Notes under the pieces: model-generated | What the model was told of the DNA's origin: nothing | Databases searched by the model: none | What the model saw: the letters and a program-made list of their open reading frames with translations, nothing else | Virus record (IMG/VR): IMGVR_UViG_3300042889_000228 | Coordinates: 1-31,397 of that record | Length of the DNA: 31,397 bases | From: a virus | Reading direction: 5' to 3' (one strand) | In this document: in pieces, positions 14,801-30,788 of the stretch | Layout: every line of letters begins with the position of its first letter | Position numbering within the stretch: the stretch's first letter is position 1 | Position numbers and translations under genes: made by a program

Positions 14801-17500
14801 ATTTTCAATACCATTTTTAGAATCACGCAAGATATTCATTGACATTGCAACACTGTCGGAAGCAGTTAAGAATGTATCTTCTGCTGCAATTTGAGCGATG
14901 CTCATATTTTTGGTGTGAGAATCAAACTTTAAGTTAAACTCTATGTCTTGTTTTTTCTGCTGAGTCTGACCCCTGCGGTTCTTAATACCACGACTAATGC
15001 GACCAGAGTTAGTAAAGTCAGTAAACATGTCAGCGTAACCGAATCCACGCTCTTCGTGGAATGAAGCCATCATTACAACAACACGACTCATACCTTCAGC
15101 AACGTTACGTGTGGTGTAAACAAAGCCAAGAAGAGTTAATGGTTTCCAAATTTGATTTTGCCATGCTAGTACTGCGTTAGCAAGAGTATCTTTACCAACT
15201 GTAAACGCTTCTCCAGCATTTTTACTAATTGTTCCTGGCATATTAACTGCATAGTTTTCAGCATTTTTAACAATGTCATCAATTAACCTAGCGTCAAAGA
15301 CTCCCTGTTTAATGTAATCAACAATTCCATTAAGTAGTTTTTTATTGTTAATAACAAAATCTTCTACGTCTTCAACGCGAGGAGCAAAGTGCACACCTGG
15401 AACCTGGGACTCCATTCCTGGAGTACCGCGAATAAGTTCATCTACAACATACTTTTCATCTGCTGCAGTTCTTGTAGCACGACCTTGACTTTGTGCATAA
15501 TCATCAGCAATGTCTTCAATTAAAAACTTTAACTGGGGGATTTGTATTCCCTTAAACTTTTCTACAACAGTGTAATCTTTTTCTGCTGCACGGCGAATTA
15601 CCTGAGAGCGCTTCTGAGTTGTCTTTATATTAATTTGTTCAAATATACGAACAAACAATGCTCTTTGCTCTGCGTTTAAACTATTAACTGATGGAATATG
15701 CTTAGCAGAAACATCAACCTGCATATCAACAACTTGCTTTTCTGCTAAGTTCCACCTAGAAGCCTTAGTGCTTTCCATTAAGTATTGGTTGTAACGTGAT
15801 TTCTGCCATTCACCAGATTTACCAGTTGCTTTTGCGTGACTACGAAAACGTGCAGCCATTTCAAGATGCGAACGGTCTCCAGCAGGACCAGAGAACTGCG
15901 CTAAACCACTAGGTGTTTCGTGAACACGCGAACCTGGATTTGCCCAGTAAGCCATGTAAGTTCCGTCTGGGCGTTGTGATGTTCCCCAGTATGATTCATC
16001 AGCCTTGCGACCAGCAGCAATTCTTTTATCTTCAAGTTTTCTTAGTGCATAAACAGGAACTGTCTGGTTAACCATAGTTGGACCAGTGCCTTGAATGTCA
16101 TACAAAAGTTGAGCCTCACGACTTTTTGAAGCAATGTCTTTGCGAAGTTCTTCTAGTGTTGTATCACGGAGGGTGTATGCCCACTGTTGTTCTTCAATAG
16201 TTGGAACGGTCTTATTTATAGTTCCAGGAATAATTAATTGCTGAGGACTATCAACAGAGTCAATAGGAGCAGTGTAACGATTAGGGTCAAAAATATCTTC
16301 AACATATGCGGTGACTGAACGTTCTCTAGCCTGAAGTGATTCTAGTTCACTGGCTAGGCGTTCGCTACGCACAGCAAGTTCGTCAAACTTTCCACCACTT
16401 AAATCCATACCAGCAGCAACGGTGTCAGCAACGAGTTCACGACCACCAATAATATGAGCCTTAATTAAAATTGGTGAAGTGTTGCCTGAAGCCTTACCAA
16501 CCATGGGGTGCCATAGCAATGCACTAGGTTGTAAATTATTTGGGTCTTCAGCAAGACGAGCAACTTCGTCATAGAGAGGACTAAAAGAGTTTCTGATTAG
16601 TGGGTCTTTAGCGTCATCCGCTTCTCTTAAAAGAGTTGGTAAATTTTTTGAATTTACTGGACGAACGATGTACCTCATGCGTGCGCTTTGAGCAACACCA
16701 GGAATAATATTTACAGGGTCTGGAATATTAAAGAAAAAATCACCAACACCAGAAAAGAATCTTGGTGCTCCTTGGCTATAAAATTCATCAACTTCTTGAC
16801 TATTTTCCCAGTCAAGTTTTTCAGCACCTTGTGTTCCAGAAATTGCATTAGCAATAAGTAAGATACCAGCACGCATTGGAGAACCTACACGGCGAGCGTA
16901 AATATCATTTGGGTCATCTTCTGGATTTACAGGACGGCGAGATGTTTCTAAAGCCTTCTGGAATAATGGACTTTGTTCGCCAAACTGTGAGTTTAATCCA
17001 AAAAATTCTTCAGCAAACGTTCCAGAGATATCTTTATTCTGTTCACGGAAGGTTGGTGATGCAACTAGGAATGACGCAGCAATGTATGGGCGGATGTACT
17101 GTGCACCAGGACGAAGTATCGGTTCAAGTAGTTCCGCACTACCTAAAGGCGGAACAGTTACCATTGGTATTCCAGCCTGGTCAAGTCTTGGATTGCCATT
17201 CTTATCAAGAATTGGCTGACCATATATTTGACTTGGTTGGTCGTCAAAAACAGTTCCCCTTTTAAGAACACCTAGAACTGTAGACTTTTGCTCTTCTGTT
17301 ACCGTGTTTTTAATTATAGAACCAAATGGAGCAAGCATACTTGCATACTTTTTATTCTTATTAAAGAATGAAGATACCGCATTGCCAGCAACAGTAGCAA
17401 AGTCTTGAGCACCTTGAGGAATTGTAATTAAACCATCAGCAGCATTTGCAACTGGATTGCTAGGACGTAACGGTTTTTCGGAGGATTCTCTTCTAACCAT
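11828..17500 (-). CDS. Giant virion structural protein (1890 aa)
   Basis: This is the largest gene of the window. It lies between two small portal-side genes and the EF-hand protein. The N-terminus is Ser/Pro-rich (MVRRESSEKPLRPSNPVANA), with a hydrophobic turn around residues 775-800 (KPLTLLGFVYTTRNVAEG). The C-terminal 400 residues are Tyr/Asn/Lys-rich (YIAEFLSGTFGAIAKPKLIS). There are no tape-measure-like repeats. In podoviruses such giant proteins in this slot are often internal proteins ejected with the DNA, and that is my best guess. It could instead replace a MuF-like minor capsid protein. One lone GTTTAAAC lies inside at 15674. Confidence 0.6.
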   Translation of the reverse strand: MVRRESSEKPLRPSNPVANAADGLITIPQGAQDFATVAGNAVSSFFNKNKKYASMLAPFGSIIKNTVTEEQKSTVLGVLKRGTVFDDQPSQIYGQPILDKNGNPRLDQAGIPMVTVPPLGSAELLEPILRPGAQYIRPYIAASFLVASPTFREQNKDISGTFAEEFFGLNSQFGEQSPLFQKALETSRRPVNPEDDPNDIYARRVGSPMRAGILLIANAISGTQGAEKLDWENSQEVDEFYSQGAPRFFSGVGDFFFNIPDPVNIIPGVAQSARMRYIVRPVNSKNLPTLLREADDAKDPLIRNSFSPLYDEVARLAEDPNNLQPSALLWHPMVGKASGNTSPILIKAHIIGGRELVADTVAAGMDLSGGKFDELAVRSERLASELESLQARERSVTAYVEDIFDPNRYTAPIDSVDSPQQLIIPGTINKTVPTIEEQQWAYTLRDTTLEELRKDIASKSREAQLLYDIQGTGPTMVNQTVPVYALRKLEDKRIAAGRKADESYWGTSQRPDGTYMAYWANPGSRVHETPSGLAQFSGPAGDRSHLEMAARFRSHAKATGKSGEWQKSRYNQYLMESTKASRWNLAEKQVVDMQVDVSAKHIPSVNSLNAEQRALFVRIFEQINIKTTQKRSQVIRRAAEKDYTVVEKFKGIQIPQLKFLIEDIADDYAQSQGRATRTAADEKYVVDELIRGTPGMESQVPGVHFAPRVEDVEDFVINNKKLLNGIVDYIKQGVFDARLIDDIVKNAENYAVNMPGTISKNAGEAFTVGKDTLANAVLAWQNQIWKPLTLLGFVYTTRNVAEGMSRVVVMMASFHEERGFGYADMFTDFTNSGRISRGIKNRRGQTQQKKQDIEFNLKFDSHTKNMSIAQIAAEDTFLTASDSVAMSMNILRDSKNGIENYVAASPSQSAGITAVRRTVGNLFEADRPNDISVPFLDALTSGDYKLAWELSNSMSYQQLSVTYGYIKSQTQEAVNQLAYTASKTSPSPGVEALMPDLINSIGNIGLAADASMLSLLNRAQLRGELEKFIGDKGNFVKQKTGTQKGKIPFRSLPEGKFEPVKGYFFDDSFSNAINEIMLGQISSNASTSSTILNVRSAIAEQAWNKQVREATIFPTIAVDGNKVGLMNPRWAEAFSEHSNNIYYNDDVARLFLEGGTVESVKAWAKTSASAKWRETMYDDASYYPGGVSKGYDRIIEIRSVDIAERYPLVGANGEDLSALRQKVLDRTFTPEDSLKIPELDRMPARGYDVTLHAEDQGKAVKRAYKGFVNKLFNFFGTRPEDTFVRIPFYRMVYRNEVRRRTQFLIDSGKNPERYEQQILNAARSEAYKQVMEKLYSIERYTDFGQVMQFFTPFYMSGQNSSRFWLGAVKDRPQILFQALQLWNVPNKLGVVYNEDGEQTLFDTPWSAERNQIIVGLPKPVADFFGQDYAGIYKSSLDLAFQGQVPGVPSLGGPVIDTIGSNIMRSLSGTKYDPDRFAMEMGLGPNFIQDHVIKFYKDNKENPDENWVFSTVRGAFGYASQWKSLIHLGSIYDDDPTNSAMSKTQSLYNTIVSEEYAKGNYLTADGHGKAITKAFALAARGYIAEFLSGTFGAIAKPKLISKAEMERKKLNGLIKQYGYEEGTLKFAQSFDESQSPIYQAVLASTTSAAENRFGIFANPQSIYNLKLNSEKIALIDENNPDSDVIGYFVNEGNPSKDRSALSDEFLYNNKINGKPLKYKDTNRENIKYDTQKRAFNNEYYPYSAEIDLMQQGDALNGTEQPAYFYEDLKKQFKEELYLKYPNVGIRRQEFEKKDRMLDIRSMVVLINDKKFMNSVGNRSKIVQLADIYINDFRPDYVQQKIDGVSTKEIDASRNQILEDLANKDPEVMKFFQIFFYNDTYEPIDNNNVWGE

Positions 17501-17664: not shown

Positions 17665-18113
17665 TAAATACCCTGTTGATTAAATGATGACTTAATTAGA
17701 CCCATAAAAATTTTAAATGCATCTGGTGCATCAGGCTGTGACGCAAGTGCTTCAAGTTCTGGCATATACTTTTCAATCATTGCATAACGACCAACAGGTT
17801 CTGGTGTACGACCAGGACCAACTGGAGCACCAGCAGTTACTGGTTCATTTGGTCGTTCTGTAGGTGCAAATAAATTTGTAAGTTGCTGACGTGGTTGTGT
17901 TGCTACACTTGGCGCAGGGACATTAGGTACTGGATTACCTTGCATTGGTGCACCTGACTGCATATCTGCCAACGCTTTTCTTTCTCCATATTTACCGCCA
18001 CCTGCAATTTCTTTAGCACCTTGGATTGGACCGCCGTCAGTGCGGCGTGAAAGAGAACCTGGACCCGATACTGCAGCAGGGTTGGCTGGCTTGCGATATC
18101 CACCTTTAGCCAT
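17664..18113 (-). CDS. Gly/Pro-rich protein downstream of the protease
   Basis: The 149-residue protein has a basic, Gly/Pro-rich N-terminus (MAKGGYRKPANPAAVSGPGS) and a disordered Pro-rich middle (PVPNVPAPSVATQPR). A helical C-terminus follows (YAMIEKYMPELEALASQPDA, FKIFMGLIKSSFNQQGI). TAATG overlaps connect it to both neighbours. The disordered N-terminus with a folded helical C-terminus would suit a scaffold-like or protease-targeted capsid assembly factor; that is inference. Confidence 0.6.
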   Translation of the reverse strand: MAKGGYRKPANPAAVSGPGSLSRRTDGGPIQGAKEIAGGGKYGERKALADMQSGAPMQGNPVPNVPAPSVATQPRQQLTNLFAPTERPNEPVTAGAPVGPGRTPEPVGRYAMIEKYMPELEALASQPDAPDAFKIFMGLIKSSFNQQGI

Positions 18114-20415: not shown

Positions 20416-20423
20416 GAATATCC

Positions 20424-22310: not shown

Positions 22311-22329
22311 ATGAAGTTATCCTGTCTGG

Positions 22330-22638
22330 TTATTTTTTCTTTGTGGTCTTACCGTAGCCTGAAGTTGGGGCACCCATTGCTTTGGCTCCCTGAGCCTTCA
22401 TCTTGTTCTTAGCGCCAGTCTTGACTGGCATGGAAGGCTTGGTGGCTGATACAGAGTTTGCTGGCTTGAAGCCACTTGAGGTGGTTCGGATGTTTGCGCC
22501 CTTGCCAGCCTTATTTGCGTTACGGGTTTCTTTGTTGAACGCTTTGGCAGCAGAGGCACCTACTCGTAGTTCGCCCTTGGCTAGTTTAGCGGCGCTGCGC
22601 TTTGCGTTGCGTATGTCTAACTTGTCACCTTTAGCCAT
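22330..22638 (-). CDS. Lys-rich basic protein, first gene of the late operon
   Basis: The 102-residue product begins MAKGDKLDIRNAKRSAAKLA and is basic throughout (KMKAQGAKAMGAPT, KTTKKK at the end). AGGAG stands before its ATG. It sits where a small terminase is often found but has no HTH that I can see. It may bind DNA or nucleate packaging; that is inference. It resembles in composition the basic proteins at 1376-2508. Confidence 0.7.
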   Translation of the reverse strand: MAKGDKLDIRNAKRSAAKLAKGELRVGASAAKAFNKETRNANKAGKGANIRTTSSGFKPANSVSATKPSMPVKTGAKNKMKAQGAKAMGAPTSGYGKTTKKK

Positions 22639-22665
22639 TTGGCTCTCCTAAGTGGGTTGGTTTAA

Positions 22666-22684
22666 TTTAGCATCCACCGCTAAA
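22666..22684 (-). other. Stem-loop in late leader near start codon
   Basis: A 6-bp stem (TTTAGC / GCTAAA) closes a 7-base loop. In the minus-strand RNA the loop reads GGTGGAT, which is Shine-Dalgarno-like. It lies about 28 bases before the first late start codon and may affect ribosome access. Confidence 0.4.
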
Positions 22685-22722
22685 TCATGTCTAAATAAAA
22701 TGATATAAAGAACTTAATATAA

Positions 22723-22824
22723 GAGCGCCGAAAGGCGCTCATAATAGCAGCCCCCAAAGGGCTGCTTTAGGTTATGTTAGGCAGCCACAAAAGGCTGCCA
22801 TTAGGTTGTGTGCGCAAAGCGCAC
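22723..22824 (-). other. Four tandem stem-loops in the late leader
   Basis: Four perfect hairpins lie head to tail: 22723-22740 (7-bp stem, GAAA loop), 22746-22766 (8-bp, CCAAA loop), 22780-22799 (7-bp, ACAAAA loop) and 22810-22824 (6-bp, AAA loop). Each has a different stem but an A-rich loop on the plus strand. The spacers between the last three resemble TTAGGTTRTGTTA. None has a clear U-tract on the minus strand, so simple terminators are unlikely. They begin just after the predicted late start site. Confidence 0.75.
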
Positions 22825-22836
22825 TTATGTTATTTT

Positions 22837-22865
22837 ATCCTACATATATACTAACCCTGTTACAA
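22837..22865 (-). promoter_or_regulatory. Candidate late promoter (leftward)
   Basis: Read on the minus strand, TTGTAA (-35, at 22865-22860) is followed by a 17-base gap and TAGGAT (-10, at 22842-22837). This gives a start near 22830, just before the tandem hairpins. Each hexamer matches the sigma-70-type consensus at four of six bases. Moderate support only. Confidence 0.45.
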
Positions 22866-22889
22866 AGGGACTGTAACGTTTCGTTATCA

Positions 22890-22900
22890 AATTGTTATAA
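22890..22900 (-). promoter_or_regulatory. TTATAACAATT element, copy C
   Basis: The 11-base string TTATAACAATT, on the minus strand here, also occurs at 23209-23219 and 25913-25923 on the plus strand. Here it lies 24 bases upstream of the candidate late -35. In the other two copies it lies 22 bases upstream of a TTGACA. Likely a binding site upstream of promoters. Confidence 0.5.
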
Positions 22901-23116
22901 ACTATTTTTAAAGTCCTTATTCCAATGGGTTTTATATTGTGTGCCTATAGAGCAAATACTGGAAAAAATATTTGATGGGAGTCATACTGGTTATAGTAAT
23001 TATAGATTAACAACTGGGGGTCGTAGCGATTTTTTTCCACAGGTTATCCACAGGTGTTAATAACTTGTGTATAACTTATCCCCACCCCTGTGGACGGATT
23101 GGATACGATTATTTAA

Positions 23117-23132
23117 GCAACCTTTTGGTTGC
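23117..23132. other. Small stem-loop between DnaA modules
   Basis: A 6-bp stem (GCAACC / GGTTGC) with a TTTT loop lies between the two DnaA-box modules. It is short and may be part of the origin structure. Confidence 0.4.
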
Positions 23133-23208
23133 GTAATTAACATTAAACGGGGGTTGCGCGGTCTGGGACTCTCCACCCCTCCCGTTTAAACGGGGAGCAC
23201 AATTTCAT

Positions 23209-23247
23209 TTATAACAATTTGGTAAACATCGGCGTGTCGGCTTGACA
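23209..23247 (+). promoter_or_regulatory. TTATAACAATT element plus TTGACA, copy A
   Basis: TTATAACAATT (23209-23219) is followed at an offset of 32 bases by CTTGACA (23241-23247), exactly as in copy B at 25913. The TTGACA could be a -35 box, but no good -10 is seen within 16-18 bases. It overlaps the second DnaA module, so initiation and transcription could be linked. Confidence 0.45.
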
Positions 23248-23475
23248 AAAGTTATCCACAGATTTCTACGACCTGTGCATAACATTGTGGATAAGTGTTT
23301 CATAATACGCAACTTGAGCAGGTGCCATTTTCAGGGCTCCTGTGTCTACTAGTGCCAGTTAGGGGTTATAGGGGCTTAGAATGGCTCTGAGAGCCTCCTA
23401 AAGGTATTCCCTTTATTTGCAAGGGTTTTAAGGGGACAACACGACACGCCCATAATCTGGGATTTGGGAATGGAT

Positions 23476-23503
23476 TTGACATTGCCTCCATAACTACTAC
23501 TGT
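23476..23503 (+). promoter_or_regulatory. Candidate early promoter before the SprT-like gene
   Basis: TTGACA (23476-23481) is separated by 16 bases from TACTGT (23498-23503), a TAnnnT -10. It lies 52 bases before the SprT-like start codon. Good -35, modest -10. Confidence 0.55.
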
Positions 23504-23555
23504 TAGTCATAAGAGGTTGCCAACAAGGTGCAACCCCATAACTGGAGGTACGAAG

Positions 23556-24203
23556 ATGAAGACAACAACAACGAAGACATTCCCAAAGATTGACCTAGAA
23601 CTACGTGACCCAAAGATAAATACCGCCCTTTACAACCTGAAGACATTGACCCGTGAAGAATGGTTACAGGCAGGAATCAACGGACTCAAGATGATGTTCG
23701 CCGAAATCGGCGAGACAATCCCTGAGGTTTATGTATCCGTTGGATACCCAAAAGGCTCACGAGGCAAGGGCAAGACGGTCGGACAATGCCACCCCGCAAT
23801 CCTTTCGGGTGATGAGAAGGCTCACGTGTTCATTCACCCATGCCTAACCGATTCTTTTGAGGTGCTGGCGGTGTTGTCTCACGAGATGATTCACGCCCTA
23901 GACAACTGCGAGAGCGGACACAAGGGACGATTTGCCAAAGTTGCAAAGGCATTCGGGCTTGAAGGCAAGATGACCGAGACAACCGCAGGAGCAGACCTTT
24001 TGGAGCGTTTAAACGTCCTCATCGTGATGCTGGGAGAATACCCTCACGCCCTCCTAAAGGAATCAGGCAAGAAGCAATCCACCCGCATGGTGAAATGTGA
24101 GTGCCCTGAGTGCGGTTACATCGCCCGCACATCCCAGAAATGGATTGACGAACAGGGCGCCCCGTTGTGCCCATGCACTGGCAAATCTATGGAAATCGGG
24201 TAA
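23556..24203 (+). CDS. SprT-like zinc metalloprotease
   Basis: This 215-residue protein starts at ATG 23556 with GGAGG upstream, rather than at an in-frame TTG further left. It has the zinc-protease motif HEMIH (His109, Glu110, His113) and a third probable ligand His122 in SGHKGRF. A C-terminal zinc ribbon follows (CECPECGY at 181-188, then CPC at 205-207). This is the SprT/Spartan arrangement; host relatives cut DNA-protein crosslinks. As the first rightward gene it may clear protein blocks from phage DNA or act on a host protein. GTTTAAAC occurs inside at 24007. Confidence 0.85.
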   Translation: MKTTTTKTFPKIDLELRDPKINTALYNLKTLTREEWLQAGINGLKMMFAEIGETIPEVYVSVGYPKGSRGKGKTVGQCHPAILSGDEKAHVFIHPCLTDSFEVLAVLSHEMIHALDNCESGHKGRFAKVAKAFGLEGKMTETTAGADLLERLNVLIVMLGEYPHALLKESGKKQSTRMVKCECPECGYIARTSQKWIDEQGAPLCPCTGKSMEIG

Positions 24204-24219
24204 CGATTAGGAGAGGGTT

Positions 24220-24244
24220 ACCCTCCGTTTAAACGGCGGAGGGT
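24220..24244 (+). terminator. Stem-loop after SprT-like gene with embedded GTTTAAAC
   Basis: ACCCTCC pairs with GGAGGGT around CGTTTAAACGGC, itself partly self-complementary, giving an 11-bp bulged stem. TTTCCCCC follows, so the U-tract is short. It may attenuate transcription after the protease gene, and it carries a copy of the GTTTAAAC palindrome. Confidence 0.5.
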
Positions 24245-24267
24245 TTCCCCCTAGTAATCGCTAGGAA

Positions 24268-24287
24268 GACACGCCCGACACAAACTA
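24268..24287 (+). repeat. 20-bp direct repeat, copy 1
   Basis: GACACGCCCG followed by ACACAAACTA is perfectly repeated at 24836-24855. Each copy lies in the leader of a small gene, and each is followed by CAAGGAG(A/G)CAAGACAA before the start codon. TAACGATTAG precedes both. A shorter relative (CACGACACGCCC) is at 23440-23451. It looks like a duplicated leader or regulatory site. Confidence 0.7.
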
Positions 24288-24305
24288 AAACAAGGAGACA
24301 AGACA

Positions 24306-24464
24306 ATGACAAAGAAGCACTTTGAAGCAATCGCCAAGACCATAAAGGAGCAGGGCGCAAACCCTAACCCTTGGGAAATCACAGAAGCCCTTGCGGAACT
24401 GTTCGCAACCTTTAACCCACTATTTGACAGCGAGCGTTTCTTAGACGCTTGTTCACAAGATTAA
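24306..24464 (+). CDS. 52-residue early protein
   Basis: The frame MTKKHFEAIAKTIKEQGANP... ends LDACSQD. It follows AAGGAG-type ribosome site sequence 9 bases upstream and the first copy of the 20-bp repeat. The sequence is helical with an amphipathic C-terminal half. Its stop codon overlaps the Shine-Dalgarno of the next gene. Function unknown. Confidence 0.7.
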   Translation: MTKKHFEAIAKTIKEQGANPNPWEITEALAELFATFNPLFDSERFLDACSQD

Positions 24465-24478
24465 GGAGCGTTTAAACA

Positions 24479-24718
24479 ATGAGCAACAACTGGGACACAA
24501 CTACAACCAGCACGACCAGCATTCACGTGAGCGACTGGGACAGGGAGGGCGCATCGCTAATCCACTGGAACCGAGGCGCAGAGGACCGCTACAGCCTGAC
24601 GATAGCAAGCGTGACTTTCTTCTTCACTGGTGAAGACTTTAGAAATAAGTTTTTGCCAGAGTTGCAAGAGGCAATCGCCAACCCAATCACACAGAGCAAG
24701 ACCAAGGAGAGTGTTTAA
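24479..24718 (+). CDS. 79-residue early protein
   Basis: It starts MSNNWDTTTTSTTSIHVSDW and is Thr/Ser-rich at the N-terminus, then mixed (LTIASVTFFFTGEDFRNKFL). AAGGAG is at 24463-24468, and GTTTAAAC (24470) fills most of the gap before ATG. It ends with GTT TAA inside another GTTTAAAC (24713). Function unknown. Confidence 0.7.
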   Translation: MSNNWDTTTTSTTSIHVSDWDREGASLIHWNRGAEDRYSLTIASVTFFFTGEDFRNKFLPELQEAIANPITQSKTKESV

Positions 24719-24721
24719 ACG

Positions 24722-24826
24722 ATGTACAAGTGCGAGCACGTTTGGATTGAACTAAGGGAGGGCGGTGCCTTGTGCGCCGTGTGTGATTCAAGCGAAGACA
24801 AGAACGGAAAAGTAACGATTAGATAA
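24722..24826 (+). CDS. 34-residue zinc-finger-like miniprotein
   Basis: The frame begins MYKCEHVWIELREGGALCAVCDSSE (shown in part). Cys4, His6, Cys18 and Cys21 could form a small zinc site. ATG follows one base after the GTTTAAAC palindrome at 24713. Similar CxH...CxxC mini-ribbons recur in this early region. Function unknown. Confidence 0.6.
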   Translation: MYKCEHVWIELREGGALCAVCDSSEDKNGKVTIR

Positions 24827-24835
24827 CGAAATCAC

Positions 24836-24855
24836 GACACGCCCGACACAAACTA
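24836..24855 (+). repeat. 20-bp direct repeat, copy 2
   Basis: Identical to 24268-24287 and 568 bases from it. It lies in the leader of the gene that starts at 24914. Confidence 0.7.
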
Positions 24856-24913
24856 GACACCTGCACCGTGCAGGAGTTAACTAGAACTACCAACAACAAG
24901 GAGGCAAGACAAC

Positions 24914-25210
24914 ATGGAGACGAAGACAACAGCGAAGAGGAACTATGACAGGGATTACCGAGAGGTGTCGCACGTAGTCTACCTAGACGCAGGGCACACG
25001 ACTAACGGCAACCCTCGCAGGGGCTGGATAGTGTTTGACGGTGACCGCATCGCAGGATTCGTGCAAGAAGACCACGCAGGAAAAATCAGCCTGTTCACGG
25101 AACTAATCTTGCAGGGTGGCTACACTGGAGGACGTTTAAACGGTGACTCTTTCAAGATTCAAGTAAGTGTTAAGACATTCAACGAATGGAAAAATGGAGG
25201 CAAGAAGTAA
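24914..25210 (+). CDS. 98-residue early protein
   Basis: Starting METKTTAKRNYDRDYREVSH, with AAGGAGG before it, this small mixed protein carries VVYLDAGHTTNGNPRRGWIV and DGDRIAGFVQEDHAGKISLF. GTTTAAAC lies within the frame at 25134. It is the first gene after the second 20-bp leader repeat. No family is recognised; the beta-rich sequence suggests a small fold. Confidence 0.7.
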   Translation: METKTTAKRNYDRDYREVSHVVYLDAGHTTNGNPRRGWIVFDGDRIAGFVQEDHAGKISLFTELILQGGYTGGRLNGDSFKIQVSVKTFNEWKNGGKK

Positions 25211-25434
25211 TGAACGAAGACTACGAAACACAGGAAATGGAAGACGAATACGAAGCACCGAGCCTATACCTAGCCATTATGAAAGTGTTCATGGAGACTA
25301 GGGGCAGTATTTACACCGCAGATGCACTCTTCACGGAGTTAATTGAGTGGGGAATCATTGAGGCGAACGACCCAGAAATCTTCAAGTTTGAAAAAACTTG
25401 GGCTGACATGGTTGCAGAACGGGACGGTGTTTAA
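25210..25434 (+). CDS. 74-residue acidic early protein
   Basis: I start at ATG 25210, overlapping the previous stop as TAATG, with GGAGG upstream; a longer frame from 25186 is less likely. The protein is strongly acidic (MNEDYETQEMEDEYEAPSLY). Its end is inside GTTTAAAC at 25429, and the next ATG follows it directly. A helix-rich core (YLAIMKVFMETRGSIYTADA) follows the acidic N-terminus. Function unknown. Confidence 0.7.
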   Translation: MNEDYETQEMEDEYEAPSLYLAIMKVFMETRGSIYTADALFTELIEWGIIEANDPEIFKFEKTWADMVAERDGV

Positions 25435-25436
25435 AC

Positions 25437-25607
25437 ATGGCAACTTACAGTGGAACTATAACTATCAACATAAAAGAATTTGAGGCAAGAGACGATGAGC
25501 ACGCTGCAAGGAGACTTGAATACATCAGATACGCCCTCGTTGAGGGCACGCCACTAGAGGGACTAGGGTTCACCGAACTAAGCAACGAAATAAAGGAGAG
25601 TGTTTAA
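25437..25607 (+). CDS. 56-residue early protein
   Basis: The frame MATYSGTITINIKEFEARDD... ends NEIKESV with TAA inside GTTTAAAC (25602). ATG directly follows the preceding GTTTAAAC. A beta strand (GTITINI) and a charged helix (EARDDEHAARRLEYIRYA) are visible. Its regular place between two GTTTAAAC junctions supports a real gene. Confidence 0.65.
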   Translation: MATYSGTITINIKEFEARDDEHAARRLEYIRYALVEGTPLEGLGFTELSNEIKESV

Positions 25608-25609
25608 AC

Positions 25610-25801
25610 ATGACTATGTTAGAAATGAGCAAGACAATCGGGGCAAATGCCTTCCTACGGATAGAGGCTTTCAGCGTGGCAGTGGAGGTCATGGACGCTA
25701 AGCAAGCGTATGGAAACACACGCTACCTAGTGACACCAACCAACGGACACGGCGAAGCGTGGGTAGATTCCTCACGCATCACAATTACGGAAGGTGTTTA
25801 A
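25610..25801 (+). CDS. 63-residue early protein
   Basis: Starts MTMLEMSKTIGANAFLRIEA directly after GTTTAAAC, with AAGGAG further upstream, and ends in another GTTTAAAC (25796). The sequence has a beta-rich pattern (NTRYLVTPTNGHGEAWVDSS) suggesting a small SH3-like barrel. Function unknown. Confidence 0.65.
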   Translation: MTMLEMSKTIGANAFLRIEAFSVAVEVMDAKQAYGNTRYLVTPTNGHGEAWVDSSRITITEGV

Positions 25802-25804
25802 ACG

Positions 25805-25912
25805 ATGAGACGAATCAACTGGTCAAGACTATGGGACGGGACTATCTTCTTCGGGTTGGGTGCTGCAATCATAGGCATCATCCTCTGGATGTTCGTCCTC
25901 GCCACAAACTAA
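25805..25912 (+). CDS. 35-residue single-TM microprotein
   Basis: Frame MRRINWSRLWDGTIFFGLGA... ends VLATN, with a membrane segment FFGLGAAIIGIILWMFVL. Positive residues at the N-terminus suggest Nin-Cout. ATG follows one base after GTTTAAAC. May be a small early membrane protein affecting the host envelope or superinfection; that is inference. Confidence 0.6.
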   Translation: MRRINWSRLWDGTIFFGLGAAIIGIILWMFVLATN

Positions 25913-25951
25913 TTATAACAATTAGGTAACGAATACTAAATAGCCTTGACA
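25913..25951 (+). promoter_or_regulatory. TTATAACAATT element plus TTGACA, copy B
   Basis: TTATAACAATT (25913-25923) and CTTGACA (25945-25951) have the same 32-base offset as copy A. The nearest -10 candidates are poor. It lies just before the gene at 26006 in the only clear intergenic gap of this block, so it likely starts a second early transcript. Confidence 0.5.
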
Positions 25952-26005
25952 CCTGTTAGGGACAACGATTAACTAGTAGTAACAAAGAAACTTGGAGGTT
26001 TCAAA

Positions 26006-26215
26006 ATGAGAGCAGAACGAGTAGACAACCCTTACATCAAGGGAGTGCCTGACTCAGGGATTTATACCCTAGAAGTCAGCGCAATGATAAGAGCCACCGA
26101 AACTGGACAGGTGTGGCTGGAACGCCAGACCTATCAGGGCACTGACGTCAACAGCGCAAAGAAAATGTTCAGAGAACACATGAGAGAAAACGGATTCGTA
26201 CTAGTCAACGACTAG
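26006..26215 (+). CDS. 69-residue early protein
   Basis: Starts MRAERVDNPYIKGVPDSGIY with GGAGG upstream. It shows a beta-rich body (YTLEVSAMIRATETGQVWLE) and a helical C-terminus (SAKKMFREHMRENGFVLV). It is the first gene after promoter-like module B. After its stop comes GTTTAAAC (26219), then AAGGAGG. Function unknown. Confidence 0.7.
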   Translation: MRAERVDNPYIKGVPDSGIYTLEVSAMIRATETGQVWLERQTYQGTDVNSAKKMFREHMRENGFVLVND

Positions 26216-26238
26216 GACGTTTAAACAAGGAGGAAAAC

Positions 26239-26619
26239 ATGGGAAAAGTAATTATCAAGTACGAACTAGAAGACCAAGAACTATGGAGCGCAATGTGGGG
26301 CAGTGGATTTGAGTCCGACCCCGTAACACGCAACTACCTGATGTCACTGGATTTCATTGAAGGTGACTGGGAGACGGTGGGCATAGTCAACATTGGATAC
26401 GTTGACCCCAAAGATGACACCGAGGGCGAAGATGAAACCAAATGGTTGAAGAAGCGTTTAAACATCGTTGACCTAGTGGAAGCGCTGGAGGTAGCAATCA
26501 AGGGATTCCGTCACGTACCTTGCGGTGGAGACATAACCCCTGACCTTGAACAATGGGATGCCTGTATCAGTGACATCATCTTGCAACTAGCCCTATACGG
26601 CAAGGAGGTGTGGGCATAA
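26239..26619 (+). CDS. 126-residue acidic early protein
   Basis: MGKVIIKYELEDQELWSAMW... is acidic, with a stretch DPKDDTEGEDETKW. A strong AAGGAGG stands before it. GTTTAAAC occurs within at 26456. The C-terminal half is helical (LVEALEVAIKGFRHVPCG). It is followed by a TAATG overlap. No family recognised. Confidence 0.7.
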   Translation: MGKVIIKYELEDQELWSAMWGSGFESDPVTRNYLMSLDFIEGDWETVGIVNIGYVDPKDDTEGEDETKWLKKRLNIVDLVEALEVAIKGFRHVPCGGDITPDLEQWDACISDIILQLALYGKEVWA

Positions 26620-26843
26620 TGGCGCAATACCAATACGTAGTTATGTACGATTCAAGTACCGAACAATGGGAGGTTGATGTTGATACGGTGGCAGAACTAA
26701 ACGACAGGCTTTTCTATGACAGCGAGATACAGGAATGGATTTACCCTGATGACCCTGACTACCCAGTACATAAAGAGATTTACCTAGCAATGGAGGATGC
26801 GTTAGCCGTAATCCTTAAAGAAAATAGTATGGAGGAAATGTAA
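26619..26843 (+). CDS. 74-residue acidic early protein
   Basis: I start at ATG 26619 (MAQYQYVVMYDSSTEQWEVD), overlapping the previous stop as TAATG, with AAGGAGG 11 bases upstream. It is acidic and Tyr-rich (YDSEIQEWIYPDDPDYPVHK). Overlaps its successor by TAATG. Function unknown. Confidence 0.7.
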   Translation: MAQYQYVVMYDSSTEQWEVDVDTVAELNDRLFYDSEIQEWIYPDDPDYPVHKEIYLAMEDALAVILKENSMEEM

Positions 26844-27241
26844 TGGACGCAATCCAACACTACTTAGATTCAATAGGGTTCACGGTGGACACCACGCAAC
26901 AATACGGGGGTGACACCCCTAAGTGGGCAAAGGACATGAACGCTTATGAATGTATCCTCAAGCGCAACGGTGAGAGGATGTTTGCTACCCCATTTTATCA
27001 GGGCAAGGCACACGTTGAATCACCTAAGCGTGAAGACGTACTGCACGCCATACTTGCAGACAGAAGCACGTTAGATTATTCCAGAGATTTTGAAGACTGG
27101 GCTAACGGACTGGGCTACAACGTGGACAGCATTAGCGACAAGAAATTGTTTGATTTAATTACCGAACAAACAAACAAATTAGAACTACACTTTACAGAGC
27201 AGGAACTATCTATCCTGTCTGAACTAATGGAGGGAATGTAA
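26843..27241 (+). CDS. 132-residue conserved-type phage protein
   Basis: MDAIQHYLDSIGFTVDTTQQ... has the pattern W..DMNAYECILKRNGERM, PFYQGKAHVESP, DVLHAILADRS, FEDWANGLGYNVDS. I recall this as a widely spread phage family of unknown function. GGAGG is in the preceding gene. It is coupled at both ends by TAATG. No catalytic site is evident. Confidence 0.75.
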   Translation: MDAIQHYLDSIGFTVDTTQQYGGDTPKWAKDMNAYECILKRNGERMFATPFYQGKAHVESPKREDVLHAILADRSTLDYSRDFEDWANGLGYNVDSISDKKLFDLITEQTNKLELHFTEQELSILSELMEGM

Positions 27242-27483
27242 TGAGAACAGATGAGTTAATTGGGATGCTTACCAAGTACAGCAAGCCAGAGGAGCAGGTG
27301 TACGCCCTATGGTTTGACCGTGAATTGGTAGAGCAGTACAACGATACCGAGATACCATTGACTGAAGAAGAATGGCAGGAGTTTGAGGAAGACTGGCACA
27401 ACACCGACCTACAACTAGTTGATGTGTTTAACGCAATCATTAACGGAATACGAAACAAGGAGGAAAACAATGAGACTGTTTAA
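27241..27483 (+). CDS. 80-residue acidic early protein
   Basis: MRTDELIGMLTKYSKPEEQV... is strongly acidic (LTEEEWQEFEEDWHNTDLQL). It starts by TAATG overlap and ends with GTT TAA in GTTTAAAC at 27478. It overlaps the next small gene by 14 bases. Function unknown; a DNA-mimic role is possible given the charge but not shown. Confidence 0.65.
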   Translation: MRTDELIGMLTKYSKPEEQVYALWFDRELVEQYNDTEIPLTEEEWQEFEEDWHNTDLQLVDVFNAIINGIRNKEENNETV

Positions 27484-27598
27484 ACGAGCAGAGCAAGACA
27501 CGTACGAAATACTAGATGACCTAATGGTACGCATGGCAAGTGACGAAACGTATGATGAATACATTGTGATTAGAGGAGGCATGAACAATGGGCGATAG
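27470..27598 (+). CDS. 42-residue early protein
   Basis: MRLFKRAEQDTYEILDDLMV... has a very strong ribosome site (AAGGAGG, 8 bases upstream). It overlaps the preceding gene by 14 bases and the next by 11. GTTTAAAC falls in its own codons 3-6. Helical, unknown function. Confidence 0.55.
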   Translation: MRLFKRAEQDTYEILDDLMVRMASDETYDEYIVIRGGMNNGR

Positions 27599-28016
27599 AT
27601 TTACATTCGGCGTGACCGACAGAACTGGTGACGTGCTTTATCTTTACTCTCATTGGGGCGGAGAGGATTGGGATAACAACCTAAAGAATGCTATCCACAA
27701 GGCGTATGCACATAGTCAAAGTAGTGAACGTGCTAACCGTATTATTATCTCGCAACTAATTGGTGAATCTTGGGATAGCACAACAGGCTACGCCTTTAGT
27801 ATCAACAACGTGACGGATACAGAATACCAATACGTACCTGTTGTGGATTTTAACCACAGCACCGTTACATTCTATGAGTATAGTTATGAACACGAGTTAG
27901 GTGATGCGTTACTTAAACTATCTATCCTTGAGTACCTAGGTTGCAACGACATCTTTGGTCTGTTGCATTATGCGCAACAAGCACTAGAGGAGGCTAGACC
28001 TGATGTCACCGTATGA
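27588..28016 (+). CDS. 142-residue conserved-type phage protein
   Basis: MGDRFTFGVTDRTGDVLYLY... contains YSHWGGEDWDNNLKNAIHKA and NRIIISQLIGESWDSTTGYA, a pattern I recall from many actinophage hypothetical proteins. GAGGAGG precedes ATG. It has a beta-strand-rich core. Function unknown. Confidence 0.75.
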   Translation: MGDRFTFGVTDRTGDVLYLYSHWGGEDWDNNLKNAIHKAYAHSQSSERANRIIISQLIGESWDSTTGYAFSINNVTDTEYQYVPVVDFNHSTVTFYEYSYEHELGDALLKLSILEYLGCNDIFGLLHYAQQALEEARPDVTV

Positions 28017-28128
28017 ATTAGATGATGATGAGATACACACCGTATACACACAAGATGTGTATGTATGTAAGCGATGCAGTTTAAACGACCCTTGGCACGA
28101 ATGCGAGGGGAGACCAGACAATGAGTGA
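28003..28128 (+). CDS. 41-residue zinc-finger-like miniprotein
   Basis: MSPYELDDDEIHTVYTQDVY... carries CKRC, then His and Cys (WHEC), a possible four-ligand zinc site. GAGGAGG lies upstream. GTTTAAAC (28079) falls in its codons. It overlaps both neighbours. Function unknown. Confidence 0.55.
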   Translation: MSPYELDDDEIHTVYTQDVYVCKRCSLNDPWHECEGRPDNE

Positions 28129-28249
28129 GACTATGCATTGTGACTGGGTATGGCAGGACGATAGAGACGGTTACCGCTACTGGCGGTGTACCGAACACGG
28201 AGAAATAGAATCAGAACAACTGGAGGAAAAAACTTATGGAGAAAATTAA
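28121..28249 (+). CDS. 42-residue Cys/His miniprotein
   Basis: MSETMHCDWVWQDDRDGYRY... contains His6, Cys7 and CTEH further on, suggesting a small metal site. It overlaps the previous and next genes by 8 and 14 bases. Small Trp/Tyr-rich zinc-type proteins are common in early phage regions. Function unknown. Confidence 0.55.
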   Translation: MSETMHCDWVWQDDRDGYRYWRCTEHGEIESEQLEEKTYGEN

Positions 28250-28520
28250 GTACCCGAACTATGACGGCACACAGAACTGCGCACGTATGGGTGTGGATGT
28301 GTTCTATCAGGACTACGATAATAAGACAACGGCGCAAGAGGTAGCAGACTTAAAAGAGTTTTGCTCTAACTGCAACATACTTGTTGAGTGTGCAGACTAC
28401 GCAATCAAGCACGAGAAGTATGGTTTCTGGGGTGGTACTACGCCTTATGAGAGACGTACTATCCGCAACAAGCGTGGCATTAGATTGAACTTGCCCGAAA
28501 ATGATTGGACAAAAAAGTAA
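28236..28520 (+). CDS. WhiB-like iron-sulfur transcription regulator
   Basis: The 94-residue protein has the four WhiB cysteines (Cys15, then CSNC at 43-46, and Cys52) and the Gly-Trp turn (GFWGGTTPYERR, near 63-74) followed by a basic tail (RNKRGIRLNL). WhiB proteins bind a 4Fe-4S cluster and act with the main sigma factor; phage members (such as TM4 WhiBTM4) can block host WhiB and cell division. GGAGG precedes its ATG. This is the best host marker in the window. A role in switching phage or host promoters is inference. Confidence 0.9.
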   Translation: MEKIKYPNYDGTQNCARMGVDVFYQDYDNKTTAQEVADLKEFCSNCNILVECADYAIKHEKYGFWGGTTPYERRTIRNKRGIRLNLPENDWTKK

Positions 28521-28705
28521 TGGTAATCAGCACAGTTGAAAAAGAGTCAGATGTTTATGAGGAGATACACGTAGAGGTTGAGCCTGATACTGGGTCAATC
28601 TTTTTAGGTAACACACATTTCTTTATGGAACGCAAGACATTTGAACGCTTACTGTTCACAATGCAAGCCGCCCTATTAGAAGAAGAAATGTTGGGTAGTC
28701 AATGA
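28520..28705 (+). CDS. 61-residue early protein
   Basis: I start at ATG 28520 (MVISTVEKESDVYEEIHVEV), overlapping the WhiB stop as TAATG, rather than at an in-frame TTG. It is acidic with beta strands and a C-terminal helix (TFERLLFTMQAALLEEEM). It overlaps the next gene by ATGA. Function unknown. Confidence 0.6.
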   Translation: MVISTVEKESDVYEEIHVEVEPDTGSIFLGNTHFFMERKTFERLLFTMQAALLEEEMLGSQ

Positions 28706-28800
28706 ATTTTATTCTATTTGTTGTGTGCCTTGGACAGGCACTAGCGATACGCAGATTGTATCGGGAAAACAAGTTTCTAACGGATGTGTTGCGTAAATGA
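28702..28800 (+). CDS. 32-residue membrane-anchored microprotein
   Basis: MNFILFVVCLGQALAIRRLY... has a short hydrophobic N-terminus (about 13 residues) and a charged tail (RENKFLTDVLRK). It overlaps both neighbours by ATGA. The hydrophobic run is short for a membrane span, so anchoring is tentative. Function unknown. Confidence 0.5.
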   Translation: MNFILFVVCLGQALAIRRLYRENKFLTDVLRK

Positions 28801-29132
28801 GAACACGTAAGAAAGAACTAGAGGCTATCGCTGATGTCCTTGAGCAAGAGCACCATGACGTGGTTTATCTAGCAGAGATTATCTGGAAGATGATAGATGA
28901 GATGCGCCGTGAACGTGAACTTTACGTAGTAGGTGTGAACTATCAAGGTGTTGGACAGTTTCTATTCGGACCTTATGAGTCAGATACTATGGCTACTAAA
29001 GATTACGAGGGACGAGGTAACATTCGTGCGCTCCAACAAGGTGACATTGCCAAGGTGTTTAAACTACTTGCACCTACAAAAGTATTTGCAGACAGCGATG
29101 AGATACAAGGTGACTTGTTTGACATCAGATAG
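28797..29132 (+). CDS. 111-residue early protein, last gene of the block
   Basis: MRTRKKELEAIADVLEQEHH... has a charged helical N-terminus (VVYLAEIIWKMIDEMRRERE) and a mixed C-terminus (LFGPYESDTMATKDYEGRGN). GTTTAAAC occurs within at 29057 and overlaps its stop at 29132. It ends the small-gene block before a large inverted repeat. Function unknown. Confidence 0.65.
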   Translation: MRTRKKELEAIADVLEQEHHDVVYLAEIIWKMIDEMRRERELYVVGVNYQGVGQFLFGPYESDTMATKDYEGRGNIRALQQGDIAKVFKLLAPTKVFADSDEIQGDLFDIR

Positions 29133-29156
29133 TTTAAACGCTATCATTATAAATGT

Positions 29157-29213
29157 TGTCGGGGTTGAGCCGTGATTTTTTCACCTCCATGTTTCATCAC
29201 TGCTCCCCCGACA
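29157..29213 (+). other. Large imperfect hairpin with anti-SD-like loop
   Basis: TGTCGGGG (29157-29164) pairs with CCCCGACA (29206-29213), then GAGC with GCTC and GTGAT with ATCAC, a total of 17 bp with a two-base bulge and one mismatch. The 19-base loop (29177-29195) contains CACCTCC, as in the 16S rRNA anti-Shine-Dalgarno. It lies between the end of the small-gene block and a promoter. It may be a terminator-like barrier or a small RNA; no U-tract follows. Confidence 0.6.
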
Positions 29214-29226
29214 CACCGTGTACGAT

Positions 29227-29254
29227 TTGACAACCACCAAACATGGACTATAAC
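29227..29254 (+). promoter_or_regulatory. Promoter of the nuclease/helicase block
   Basis: TTGACA (29227-29232), 16 bases, then TATAAC (29249-29254). This is the best promoter in the window by consensus. The expected start is near 29261, 12 bases before two tandem stem-loops. Confidence 0.65.
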
Positions 29255-29272
29255 TTAACAACAACAACACAT

Positions 29273-29319
29273 GTTCTGCTAAGGCAGAACCAATAGTAGG
29301 TTCGCCCTTAAAGGCGAAC
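29273..29319 (+). other. Two tandem stem-loops in the nuclease leader
   Basis: GTTCTGC / GCAGAAC (29273-29290, 7 bp, TAAG loop) and GTTCGCC / GGCGAAC (29300-29319, 7 bp, CTTAAA loop) are perfect stems nine bases apart. They lie directly after the predicted start of transcription. They resemble the four stem-loops in the late leader. Neither has a U-tract, so they are not ordinary terminators. Confidence 0.65.
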
Positions 29320-29338
29320 ATAAGAAACAGAGGTAGAA

Positions 29339-29542
29339 ATGATTAAGGTGAATGGGTATGAGTTACCTGTGCATGTTAGCCATAGCCAGATAGGTACGTA
29401 CAATTCTTGTGGGTACAAGTACTGGTTACAGAAAGCATTGAACGTTGCCGAGGGTCAGACATGGTGGTTGGCTGGTGGTGTTGCAGTTCACGAAGCAACC
29501 GAAGCCTATGACCGTCAACTATGGGAACTTGAGGGACGATAG
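29339..29542 (+). CDS. Cas4/RecB-like nuclease, N-terminal part
   Basis: This 67-residue frame contains SHSQIGTYNSCGYKYWLQKA, with the first cluster Cys (Cys24), and GGVAVHEATEAYD (His51, Glu55), the N-terminal motif of PD-(D/E)XK exonucleases of the Cas4/AddB-like group. It ends with TAG, overlapping a GTG start for the rest of the enzyme (TAGTG). GAGG precedes its ATG. Alone it lacks the catalytic DxK. Either two chains assemble, the frame is shifted, or the split is a sequencing or assembly error. Confidence 0.7.
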   Translation: MIKVNGYELPVHVSHSQIGTYNSCGYKYWLQKALNVAEGQTWWLAGGVAVHEATEAYDRQLWELEGR

Positions 29543-30201
29543 TGACACAACAAGAATTACTACCCATAGCCAAAACATCTGAAGAGTTGTGGTCTACCTA
29601 CTGGGAAGCCAATTTAACCCGTCAGCGTGGCGTACAGGGGCAGGAAGACACATCCACGTGGCGTGCTGGTGGTCGTGCAACCGTAGCCAATCCCAACAAG
29701 GAAGACGGGGACTGGTGGCAAGCAAACGGTTTAAACATGGTGAACAACTGGGTTAGTTTCCGTAATGCGGAACACAACCTAGACCTATGGGTTACACCTC
29801 AGGGTGTACCTGCCATTGAACTTGTATTCAACATGAATCTAGATGGTGTCATGGTTAAGGGTGCACTTGACCGCATGATGGTGCTACCTGACGGTAGCCT
29901 TGTAGTGCTGGACATCAAGTCAGGTGCACGTATGCCTTCATCAGACTTTCAGTTGGGTATCTATGCGGTAGCCATGGAGGAAGTGTTCGGTGTTCGTCCT
30001 AAGTATGGGCTATACTGGGACGCACGTAAGGGCGCAACATCAGAGTTAATCAACCTAGATAAGTGGACACGTGAAACGGTGTCAGAGATTGTAGGAATGT
30101 TTGACAAGGCTCGGAGGGCTGGTATCTTTATACCTAACTTTGACCACTGTAAGATGTGTAATTTTAAGAACGATTGTAAGTATCAGAATGGAGATAAGTA
30201 A
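29542..30201 (+). CDS. Cas4/RecB-like PD-(D/E)XK nuclease, C-terminal part
   Basis: The 219-residue frame starts with GTG at 29542, overlapping the preceding TAG. It has the catalytic core: Asp110 (GALDRMMV), Asp124-Ile-Lys126 (LDIKSG) and Gln137/Tyr141 (QLGIY). The end has CKMCNFKNDC (Cys203, Cys206, Cys212), which with Cys24 of the upstream frame would give a four-Cys iron-sulfur site. Phage members degrade DNA ends in recombination or replication. GTTTAAAC is inside at 29729. Confidence 0.8.
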   Translation: MTQQELLPIAKTSEELWSTYWEANLTRQRGVQGQEDTSTWRAGGRATVANPNKEDGDWWQANGLNMVNNWVSFRNAEHNLDLWVTPQGVPAIELVFNMNLDGVMVKGALDRMMVLPDGSLVVLDIKSGARMPSSDFQLGIYAVAMEEVFGVRPKYGLYWDARKGATSELINLDKWTRETVSEIVGMFDKARRAGIFIPNFDHCKMCNFKNDCKYQNGDK

Positions 30202-30648
30202 ATGGAAAAGAACTATGTAGTAAACGTAAAGACAAACAAGGGCACAATCATCACAGCACGTGGTGACAGTGCCGAGGAACTAATCGCTAACGTTAATGCG
30301 TTGGTAGCACAGGGTGCACCTGATGCAATCAGCACATTAGAGGAAGCATTCACTGGTGTATCAGCACCACGTGTACTAGCAACAGACCCTGTTGCTTTAG
30401 TTCAGGCATCACTAGGTGGGGAAGTTGTTGCAGAAGTACCAGCGTTTGCACCTGTTGCACCGCCAGTACAGGCATCAGTATCTAGTGGTAGCGATAAGAT
30501 GTGCATTCACGGTGCAATGGTTAAGCGAACAGGCAACGGTGCTAAGGGAGAATGGCGTGCATTCTTCTGCCCAACACCTAAGGGCACAGCAGACCAGTGC
30601 TCACCAACGTTTGCTAACCGCAACACACCAGAGTGGAACAGTTTCTAG
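30202..30648 (+). CDS. Zinc-ribbon-like protein next to nuclease
   Basis: The 148-residue protein has an N-terminal alpha/beta domain (MEKNYVVNVKTNKGTIITAR), an Ala/Pro/Val-rich linker (about 55-95) and a C-terminal metal-type domain with CIHGAMVKR, FFCPTPKG and DQCSP (Cys101, His103, Cys123, Cys133). Phages often keep such a C-terminal domain beside recombination enzymes; a single-strand DNA-binding role is possible but inferred. It follows the nuclease stop with no gap. Confidence 0.7.
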   Translation: MEKNYVVNVKTNKGTIITARGDSAEELIANVNALVAQGAPDAISTLEEAFTGVSAPRVLATDPVALVQASLGGEVVAEVPAFAPVAPPVQASVSSGSDKMCIHGAMVKRTGNGAKGEWRAFFCPTPKGTADQCSPTFANRNTPEWNSF

Positions 30649-30684
30649 CACTTCGGGTACTAGAAAAACATAACTGAATAAAGG

Positions 30685-30768
30685 TCTGTCCTGCTGGAGG
30701 GGAAGCCAGTCAGTACAGATAGGGATGTAGGTCAGAAAGCCTACATGTGGTGCAAGTCCACACATCCC
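30685..30768 (+). ncRNA. Structured RNA element before helicase gene
   Basis: Two structures lie in the gap before the helicase. The first is a bulged hairpin: TCTGT / ACAGA outer (30685-30689 with 30715-30719), CTG / CAG, and CTGG / CCAG around an 8-base loop. The second is a three-way junction: GGGATG (30722-30727) with CATCCC (30763-30768), TAGG / CCTA, and TGTGG / CCACA closing TGCAAGT. The last hairpin resembles a tRNA T-arm. AAGGAGG is 10 bases downstream, so it could regulate translation. Known class not recognised. Confidence 0.6.
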
Positions 30769-30788
30769 ACGCTTAACAAGGAGGAACA

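Follow-up and report, generated by a model that had tools for sequence, protein, structure and literature searches.

In the IMG/VR virus record IMGVR_UViG_3300042889_000228, analyzed here over its entire 31,397 bases (hereafter the window; the record is itself a fragment), the 8-bp palindrome GTTTAAAC is repeated far above chance and follows a single gene, which encodes a SprT-like zinc metalloprotease. This gene and GTTTAAAC, or a variant of it, co-occur in phages of many hosts, i.e., of Actinobacteria, Proteobacteria, and others. With modest confidence, we favor the view that the dispersed word, in its extended form Y-GTTTAAAC-R, may be the DNA site recognized by the SprT-like metalloprotease that the phage itself encodes, with operator- or stoperator-like roles.

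GTTTAAAC is present in 17 exact copies in the window: 16 lie within 23184-29736 (6.55 kb) and one is found at 15674. This is exactly what the original prediction, made from the sequence alone, had counted (16 copies in 6.6 kb and one elsewhere), although its chance figure of 0.1 per 6.6 kb was slightly low; 0.2-0.3 is fairer, and the excess is unaffected. No other 8-mer of the window is as enriched as GTTTAAAC, and 100 dinucleotide shuffles contained it 1.23 ± 1.24 times with a maximum of 7, none reaching 17. Its one-mismatch neighbors (12, beside the 17 exact copies, for about 20 expected for both classes together) are not in excess, and GTTTAAAC is therefore an exact, maintained word. Chance or composition as its source is ruled out by these shuffles and by the reversed-word control described below. 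Structural genes (terminase, portal, capsid, tail) run leftward in the window and small genes rightward, the last of these encoding an exonuclease and a DnaB-like helicase. The presence of a WhiB-like protein suggests that the host is an actinobacterium. The claimed confinement of the sites to the rightward region is borne out in the window, and it also holds in the longer relative G001 (38.2 kb), where 20 of the 21 sites fall within 15999-27050, which is non-structural. Of the window sites, about half are intragenic, in line with the earlier remark that they occur in genes as well as in gaps. Neither an even spread nor an equal density in controls was seen in the window phage and its dense relatives, whereas other phages of the SprT family do show a genome-wide spread. 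An Rfam scan of the window gave no match.

Relatives were retrieved using the SprT-like gene, the helicase, the terminase, and the exonuclease as queries, and comprise a dense set (the window, G001, L006, G037, L093, G023, and G028) and a sparse set (G003, G004, G027, G002, and others). When four dense and four sparse genomes are aligned, most sites are common to the dense ones and missing from the sparse ones. The three coding sites at 27478, 28079, and 29057 survive in all 12 dense sequences and in none of the 12 sparse ones, with flanks whose mean identity is 85% among dense genomes and 81% between dense and sparse ones. As a background, 829 8-base windows are conserved in all four dense genomes, and 39 of them (4.7%) differ in all four sparse ones. 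It is the DNA word as such that is under selection. Conservation of the amino acids can be rejected as the cause: in the sparse relatives the sites are broken by changes that are synonymous or conservative, and several frames are used. In the window the sites fall in every reading frame, the intragenic ones being read as xGT-TTA-AAC or xxG-TTT-AAA-C. Judged from these alignments, the sites are maintained at the DNA level, independently of the reading frame.

Gene comparison of the complete relatives showed that the SprT-like gene (23556-24203) is the sole gene present in every dense genome covering the region and absent from every sparse genome. Of 41 related records searched with a profile, only G001 (21 sites) and G028 (19 sites) have it, and the other 39 carry 0 to 7 sites. 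Terminases are 95-98% identical within the group, yet dense genomes carry the SprT-like gene and near-identical sparse ones lack it. On the other hand, G028 is more distant (79% terminase identity) and yet dense and in possession of the gene; the trait therefore follows the SprT-like gene and not kinship, and simple kinship as the cause is ruled out. No alternative palindrome stood out in the sparse relatives. The sparse G003, G004, and G005 retain 5-7 GTTTAAAC, above chance and mainly in the helicase and downstream genes, and these leftover copies may be remnants or reflect a weaker constraint.

The link between gene and word extends well beyond this group. The whole genomes of Arthrobacter phages JuneStar and Elezi and of Microbacterium phage Zeta1847 carry 20-23 GTGTAAAC each (0.1 expected), and Dinoroseobacter phage R5C has 10 GTTTAAAC in the part read (0.02 expected); in JuneStar, Elezi, and R5C the sites are spread genome-wide. 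Neither GTTTAAAC nor GTGTAAAC occurs in Brahms and Celaena, and the SprT-like proteins of these two are without the QxTR motif described below. A wide scan added about 80 SprT-like loci, in most of which GTTTAAAC or GTGTAAAC ranks among the top 8-mers by enrichment. Over 89 SprT-like loci (GC content 33-73%), 76 are enriched for GT[TGC]TAAAC, i.e., 46 of T-type, 29 of G-type, and one with GTCTAAAC. Totals for GTTTAAAC and GTGTAAAC over these 89 loci are 339 and 309, for 12 and 17 expected and 9 and 15 for the reversed words. The family is also encoded in bacterial genomes, where it seems to sit in prophages; over half of these loci are likewise enriched, with up to 26 copies in 17.6 kb. Some loci with the SprT-like gene contain further repeated words: a second dispersed word, AATACTAG or AATGCTAG, in L312, L315, and L321 (5-10 copies for 0.03-0.11 expected), and the strongly repeated non-palindromic words CCCGTTCC, AACCGCTG, and AACCACAC in L286, L295, and L328.

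The association was also obtained from the opposite direction. We scanned the viral collection, blind to genes, for two GTTTAAAC separated by 215-245 bases, with the reversed word CAAATTTG as a control. The scan returned 77 new records with a median of nine sites in the retrieved stretch, and 46 of them encode the SprT-like family, with a divergent SprT domain in three others; the control scan returned 80 records with a median of two sites and no SprT-like gene. That the control came out empty carries weight, as the profile used was the one that detected the gene in the test records. When all open reading frames of the dense contigs were clustered, blind to SprT, the SprT-like family came first (43 of 80), with the large terminase next (32); the next DNA-binding family is a LexA-like helix-turn-helix (HTH) protein (18 of 80). 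Set against their relatives, several large SprT-negative dense contigs prove to be cut at the place of the gene: G110 starts and ends at the SprT-flanking genes, G109 starts at the preceding gene, and G125 starts about 1.5 kb past the place of the SprT-like gene. They are therefore fragments missing that interval. These metagenome contigs end near it as if assembly often breaks there. As another factor in SprT-negative dense contigs, the stand-alone zinc-ribbon protein phrog_34373 was sought, and none was found.

The SprT-like protein of the window carries an HExxH active site (residues 109-113) with a third histidine at 122, and H109, E110, H113, and H122 are invariant in 58 sequences. Its AlphaFold model is of good confidence, with a predicted local distance difference test score (pLDDT) of 85. 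The best solved matches of the catalytic part are human SPRTN (6mdx, Z 8.3 over 97 residues at 3.3 Å) and yeast Wss1 (Z 7.7); the Z scores are modest, and both proteins reached the top only after realignment of the structure matches. Foldseek against the PDB gave no match below E 0.001, a profile search of PDB sequences gave none, and the match to PF10263 is sub-threshold (15.5 bits for a cut-off of 25.6). In the model, the protein has a Spartan/Wss1-like protease fold. Its C-terminal module carries KKQSTRM-KCEC and is modeled as a short hairpin-helix of zinc-ribbon-like form, preceded by KKQ[ST]TR; the solved-structure search says little on this module alone. Among QxTR-bearing members, 69 have the DNA word and 8 do not, versus 2 and 5 among those lacking QxTR (Fisher p 0.0007, an optimistic value given that related sequences were counted separately). 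Comparing C-terminal sequences with the T or G at position 3 of the word revealed no clean single-residue rule.

Of the 16 clustered window sites, six share bases with a stop codon (0.6 expected) and six are found within 25 nt 5' of a start (1.3 expected); the gene-end sites provide the TAA stop, and the next ATG follows 0 or 1 base 3'. In the densest run of the window, the mean spacing is 272 bp with a coefficient of variation of 0.32, versus 0.68 at random (p 0.0015). Regular spacing is also seen in most other site clusters tested, three of twelve being without it. In all groups, a pyrimidine precedes and a purine follows the word (Y-GTNTAAAC-R, 82-95% of sites), and the extended consensus Y-GTTTAAAC-R is itself palindromic. 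These same flanks in each group argue for one common recognition mode.

The regulatory reading comes from the Arthrobacter cluster AZ and Microbacterium cluster EH phages and from prophages. In these, the variant GTTTACAC lies in the spacer or beside the -10 of repeated promoter-like sequences, including 5' of the SprT-like gene. In Zeta1847, GTTTACAC stands between the boxes (TTGCGC-17-TATGAT), and in Powerpuff and Pseudarthrobacter prophages it directly follows the -10 (TTGCGYAAG...TAGACT-GTTTACAC). Powerpuff has 27 sites, 13 of them intergenic, for an intergenic fraction of 8.5% of the genome. This phage is temperate and homoimmune, with no identifiable repressor, and a repressor has been reported missing in the AZ and EH phages (PMC8758107). 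Given this immunity without a repressor and the promoter-placed sites, we propose that the SprT-like protein may be the repressor or part of it. In the window, the site at 29132 lies in the spacer of a promoter match scoring 8.7 (about 0.3% of control positions reach 8), an operator-type arrangement; this site is absent from the aligned relatives.

Under the explanation that we favor, the C-terminal zinc-ribbon-like module with QxTR would read the palindrome, probably as a dimer. Protein bound in or beside a promoter would block initiation, and proteins bound every 270 bp or so, often at gene junctions, would block or pace transcription of the early operon. The conserved protease active site might then remove the SprT-like protein itself or another DNA-bound protein, so releasing the block. 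The suggestion of binding sites for a phage regulator, already in the original prediction, fits best with the DNA-level conservation, the palindromic consensus, and the one tracking gene, although that prediction named no factor. More tentatively, and with less than even confidence, Spartan-type metalloproteases could form a class of regulators that read palindromes through a zinc ribbon and act at dozens of genome-wide operators and roadblocks, as immunity repressor in temperate phages such as those of Arthrobacter cluster AZ and as early-region control elsewhere.

Several observations weigh against this explanation. In the GTTTAAAC phages, overlap with promoter-like sequences is no commoner than at control positions. 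Promoter-spacer placement as a general rule is thus unsupported there, so that the operator part of the proposal is carried by the AZ/EH relatives and a single window site. The proteins examined from the window group included no integrase; a lysogeny role is therefore unsupported in this group, and our claim is limited to an early-region regulator. Moreover, sites also occur within structural genes of some phages, eight QxTR-bearing family members are without clear word enrichment, some short dense contigs are SprT-negative, and three dense contigs have only a divergent SprT-domain open reading frame of about 125 aa, with no ribbon in the one that was read.

Two other explanations keep the metalloprotease at the center. 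The sites could dock a Spartan-like protease along the phage DNA, where it would degrade bound or crosslinked host proteins (silencers, defense proteins, stalled complexes); they would then mark self DNA, with no transcription control. We regard this as rather unlikely but still a serious rival, since, among solved structures, the protein is closest in fold to SPRTN and Wss1, both DNA-protein-crosslink proteases, the HExxH and third histidine never vary in the 58 sequences, and sites are evenly spaced and, in JuneStar, Elezi, and R5C, distributed genome-wide. Against it stand the confinement of the window-group sites to the early region and their enrichment at junctions (6 of 16 before starts for 1.3 expected), as well as the AZ/EH sites at promoter-like sequences, the SprT-like gene's own included, which look regulatory. 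Alternatively, another small phage or host protein would repress by binding the palindrome, and the SprT-like protease would destroy it on cue. Protease-repressor pairs such as IrrE-DdrO and CapP-CapH do exist, and the SprT-like gene would co-occur with the word as part of the same switch; besides, Foldseek lists CapP (7t5t) weakly (E 0.3), and DNA-binding genes adjoin the SprT-like gene in AZ phages. This two-component arrangement seems to us unlikely, as the dense and sparse relatives differ consistently in no second gene, other regulator families are less widespread in the gene-blind contigs (18 of 80 for the LexA-like HTH), and the motif tends to be missing where the SprT-like protein itself has lost QxTR.

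The remaining explanations do without a regulator. As a perfect 8-bp palindrome (a PmeI site), GTTTAAAC could be a methylation or nuclease target separating phage from host DNA, and some AZ phages do encode methyltransferases. But phages usually lose restriction-type sites, no methyltransferase was recognized among the subset of window proteins scanned, and the regular spacing, the preference for gene junctions, and the half-palindromic GTGTAAAC do not fit, which makes such a mark very improbable. The word could also be a recombination linker, i.e., a conserved junction word allowing the exchange of small early gene cassettes: the cassettes stand in another order in L006 than in the window, a GTTTAAAC marking the new junction, and 6 of the 16 sites overlap stop codons. 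Many sites are intragenic, however, and kept by synonymous codon choice, and exchange leaves both the tie to SprT and the AZ/EH promoter placement unexplained; we give this possibility hardly any weight.

Table 1. Positions in the window of the GTTTAAAC sites, the SprT-like gene, and the promoter match.
Feature	Positions	Strand	Remarks
GTTTAAAC	15674..15681	.	lone outlier; within leftward 1890-aa gene (probable tape measure)
GTTTAAAC within longer imperfect palindrome CTCCCGTTTAAACGGGGAG	23184..23191	.	non-coding DNA that also has DnaA-box-like repeats
SprT-like zinc metalloprotease, 215 aa	23556..24203	+	phrog_6361, 6.5e-47; candidate cognate factor of the sites
GTTTAAAC within SprT-like gene (ERLNV codons)	24007..24014	.	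kept in G001, L006
GTTTAAAC in hairpin CCCTCCGTTTAAACGGCGGAGGG, directly 3' of SprT-like stop codon	24227..24234	.	kept in three phages
GTTTAAAC immediately 5' of an ATG	24470..24477	.	
GTTTAAAC at gene junction	24713..24720	.	upstream gene's TAA inside site; ATG one base 3'
GTTTAAAC intragenic (GRLNG)	25134..25141	.	kept in G001
GTTTAAAC at stop-start junction GTTTAAACATG	25429..25436	.	
GTTTAAAC at stop-start junction GTTTAAACATG	25602..25609	.	kept in L006, G037
GTTTAAAC at stop-start junction GTTTAAACGATG	25796..25803	.	kept in 4/4 aligned dense genomes
GTTTAAAC between stop codon and next ribosome-binding site	26219..26226	.	kept in 4/4 aligned dense genomes
GTTTAAAC intragenic (KRLNI)	26456..26463	.	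kept in G001, G037
GTTTAAAC at gene overlap (MRLFKR / NNETV-stop frames)	27478..27485	.	intact in 4/4 dense, broken in 4/4 sparse
GTTTAAAC intragenic (CSLND)	28079..28086	.	intact in 4/4 dense, broken in 4/4 sparse
GTTTAAAC intragenic (KVFKL)	29057..29064	.	intact in 4/4 dense; at least 1 base off in 4/4 sparse
Sigma70-like promoter match	29119..29147	+	TTGACA 29119-29124; 17-bp spacer with GTTTAAAC 29132-29139; TATCAT 29142-29147
GTTTAAAC within PD-(D/E)XK exonuclease gene (NGLNM)	29729..29736	.	also present in G001, G004

Other elements of the window were observed around these features. A DnaA-box-like sequence, TTATCCACA, occurs three times (23044-23052, 23252-23260, and, in reverse, 23286-23294) in non-coding DNA 5' of the SprT-like gene, near the site at 23184, and the non-coding stretch 23040-23300 is a possible replication origin. 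The same non-coding stretch has four small hairpins in a row at 22720-22824, with arms GAGCGCC, AGCAGCCC, GGCAGCC, and GTGCGC. Two neighboring hairpins (GTTCTGC/GCAGAAC and GTTCGCC/GGCGAAC) are found in the intergenic region 29273-29322, and the leader of the helicase gene (30640-30788) is long and structured-looking (GGTGCAAGTCCACACATCCC), with no Rfam match even at E 1. Small early genes are reordered between window 24306-25912 and L006 3633-4816, and GTTTAAAC is found at the junctions.

We found no description of GTTTAAAC, its variant, or a link to the SprT-like gene in the open-access literature. A widespread phage protein family is now tied to a precise DNA word across phages of Actinobacteria, Proteobacteria, and others. 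This provides a concrete candidate for the repressor reported missing in the AZ and EH phages, and it suggests that a Spartan-like protease, a type known from DNA-protein crosslink repair, may be sequence-directed.

Among known systems, the stoperators of L5-type (cluster A) mycobacteriophages show a similar pattern: one short phage-specific word in many copies, twenty or more across a genome and far above chance (17 versus 1.2 here), with copies in promoters and intergenic gaps and a single phage protein as the presumed reader. L5 stoperators are 13-bp, asymmetric, and oriented with transcription, and they are bound by a monomeric HTH repressor (PMC9283540). Here, in contrast, the word is an 8-bp perfect palindrome with Y..R flanks, often intragenic and without orientation; the linked protein is a Spartan-like metalloprotease, and the system spans phages of Actinobacteria, Proteobacteria, and others. 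As for an L5-style placement at promoters and gaps, the window shows enrichment at junctions and one strong promoter match (29132), with about half of the sites intragenic and promoter overlap at control level. No HTH repressor was found among the subset of window-group proteins scanned. Hence, the likeness to L5 stoperators raised by the original prediction gives no support for membership of that family, given the palindrome and the lack of orientation. The start-associated sequences of cluster K phages are 13-bp and lie 3-9 bp upstream of starts (PMC11373665). They too are short repeats adjoining starts of small early genes, but the word here is GTTTAAAC, only about one third of its sites (6 of 16) are at starts, and many are intragenic.

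In IrrE-DdrO and CapP-CapH, a metalloprotease is tied to transcription control, as we propose here; these systems have a separate HTH repressor, whereas no separate repressor gene tracks the sites in our phages. With SPRTN and Wss1, for which we know of no sequence-specific sites, and with SprT-like phage proteins (phrog_6361), the family shares the protease fold and active site. Unlike SPRTN and Wss1, the phage family adds to these a zinc-ribbon-like module and a cognate word dispersed in the genome.

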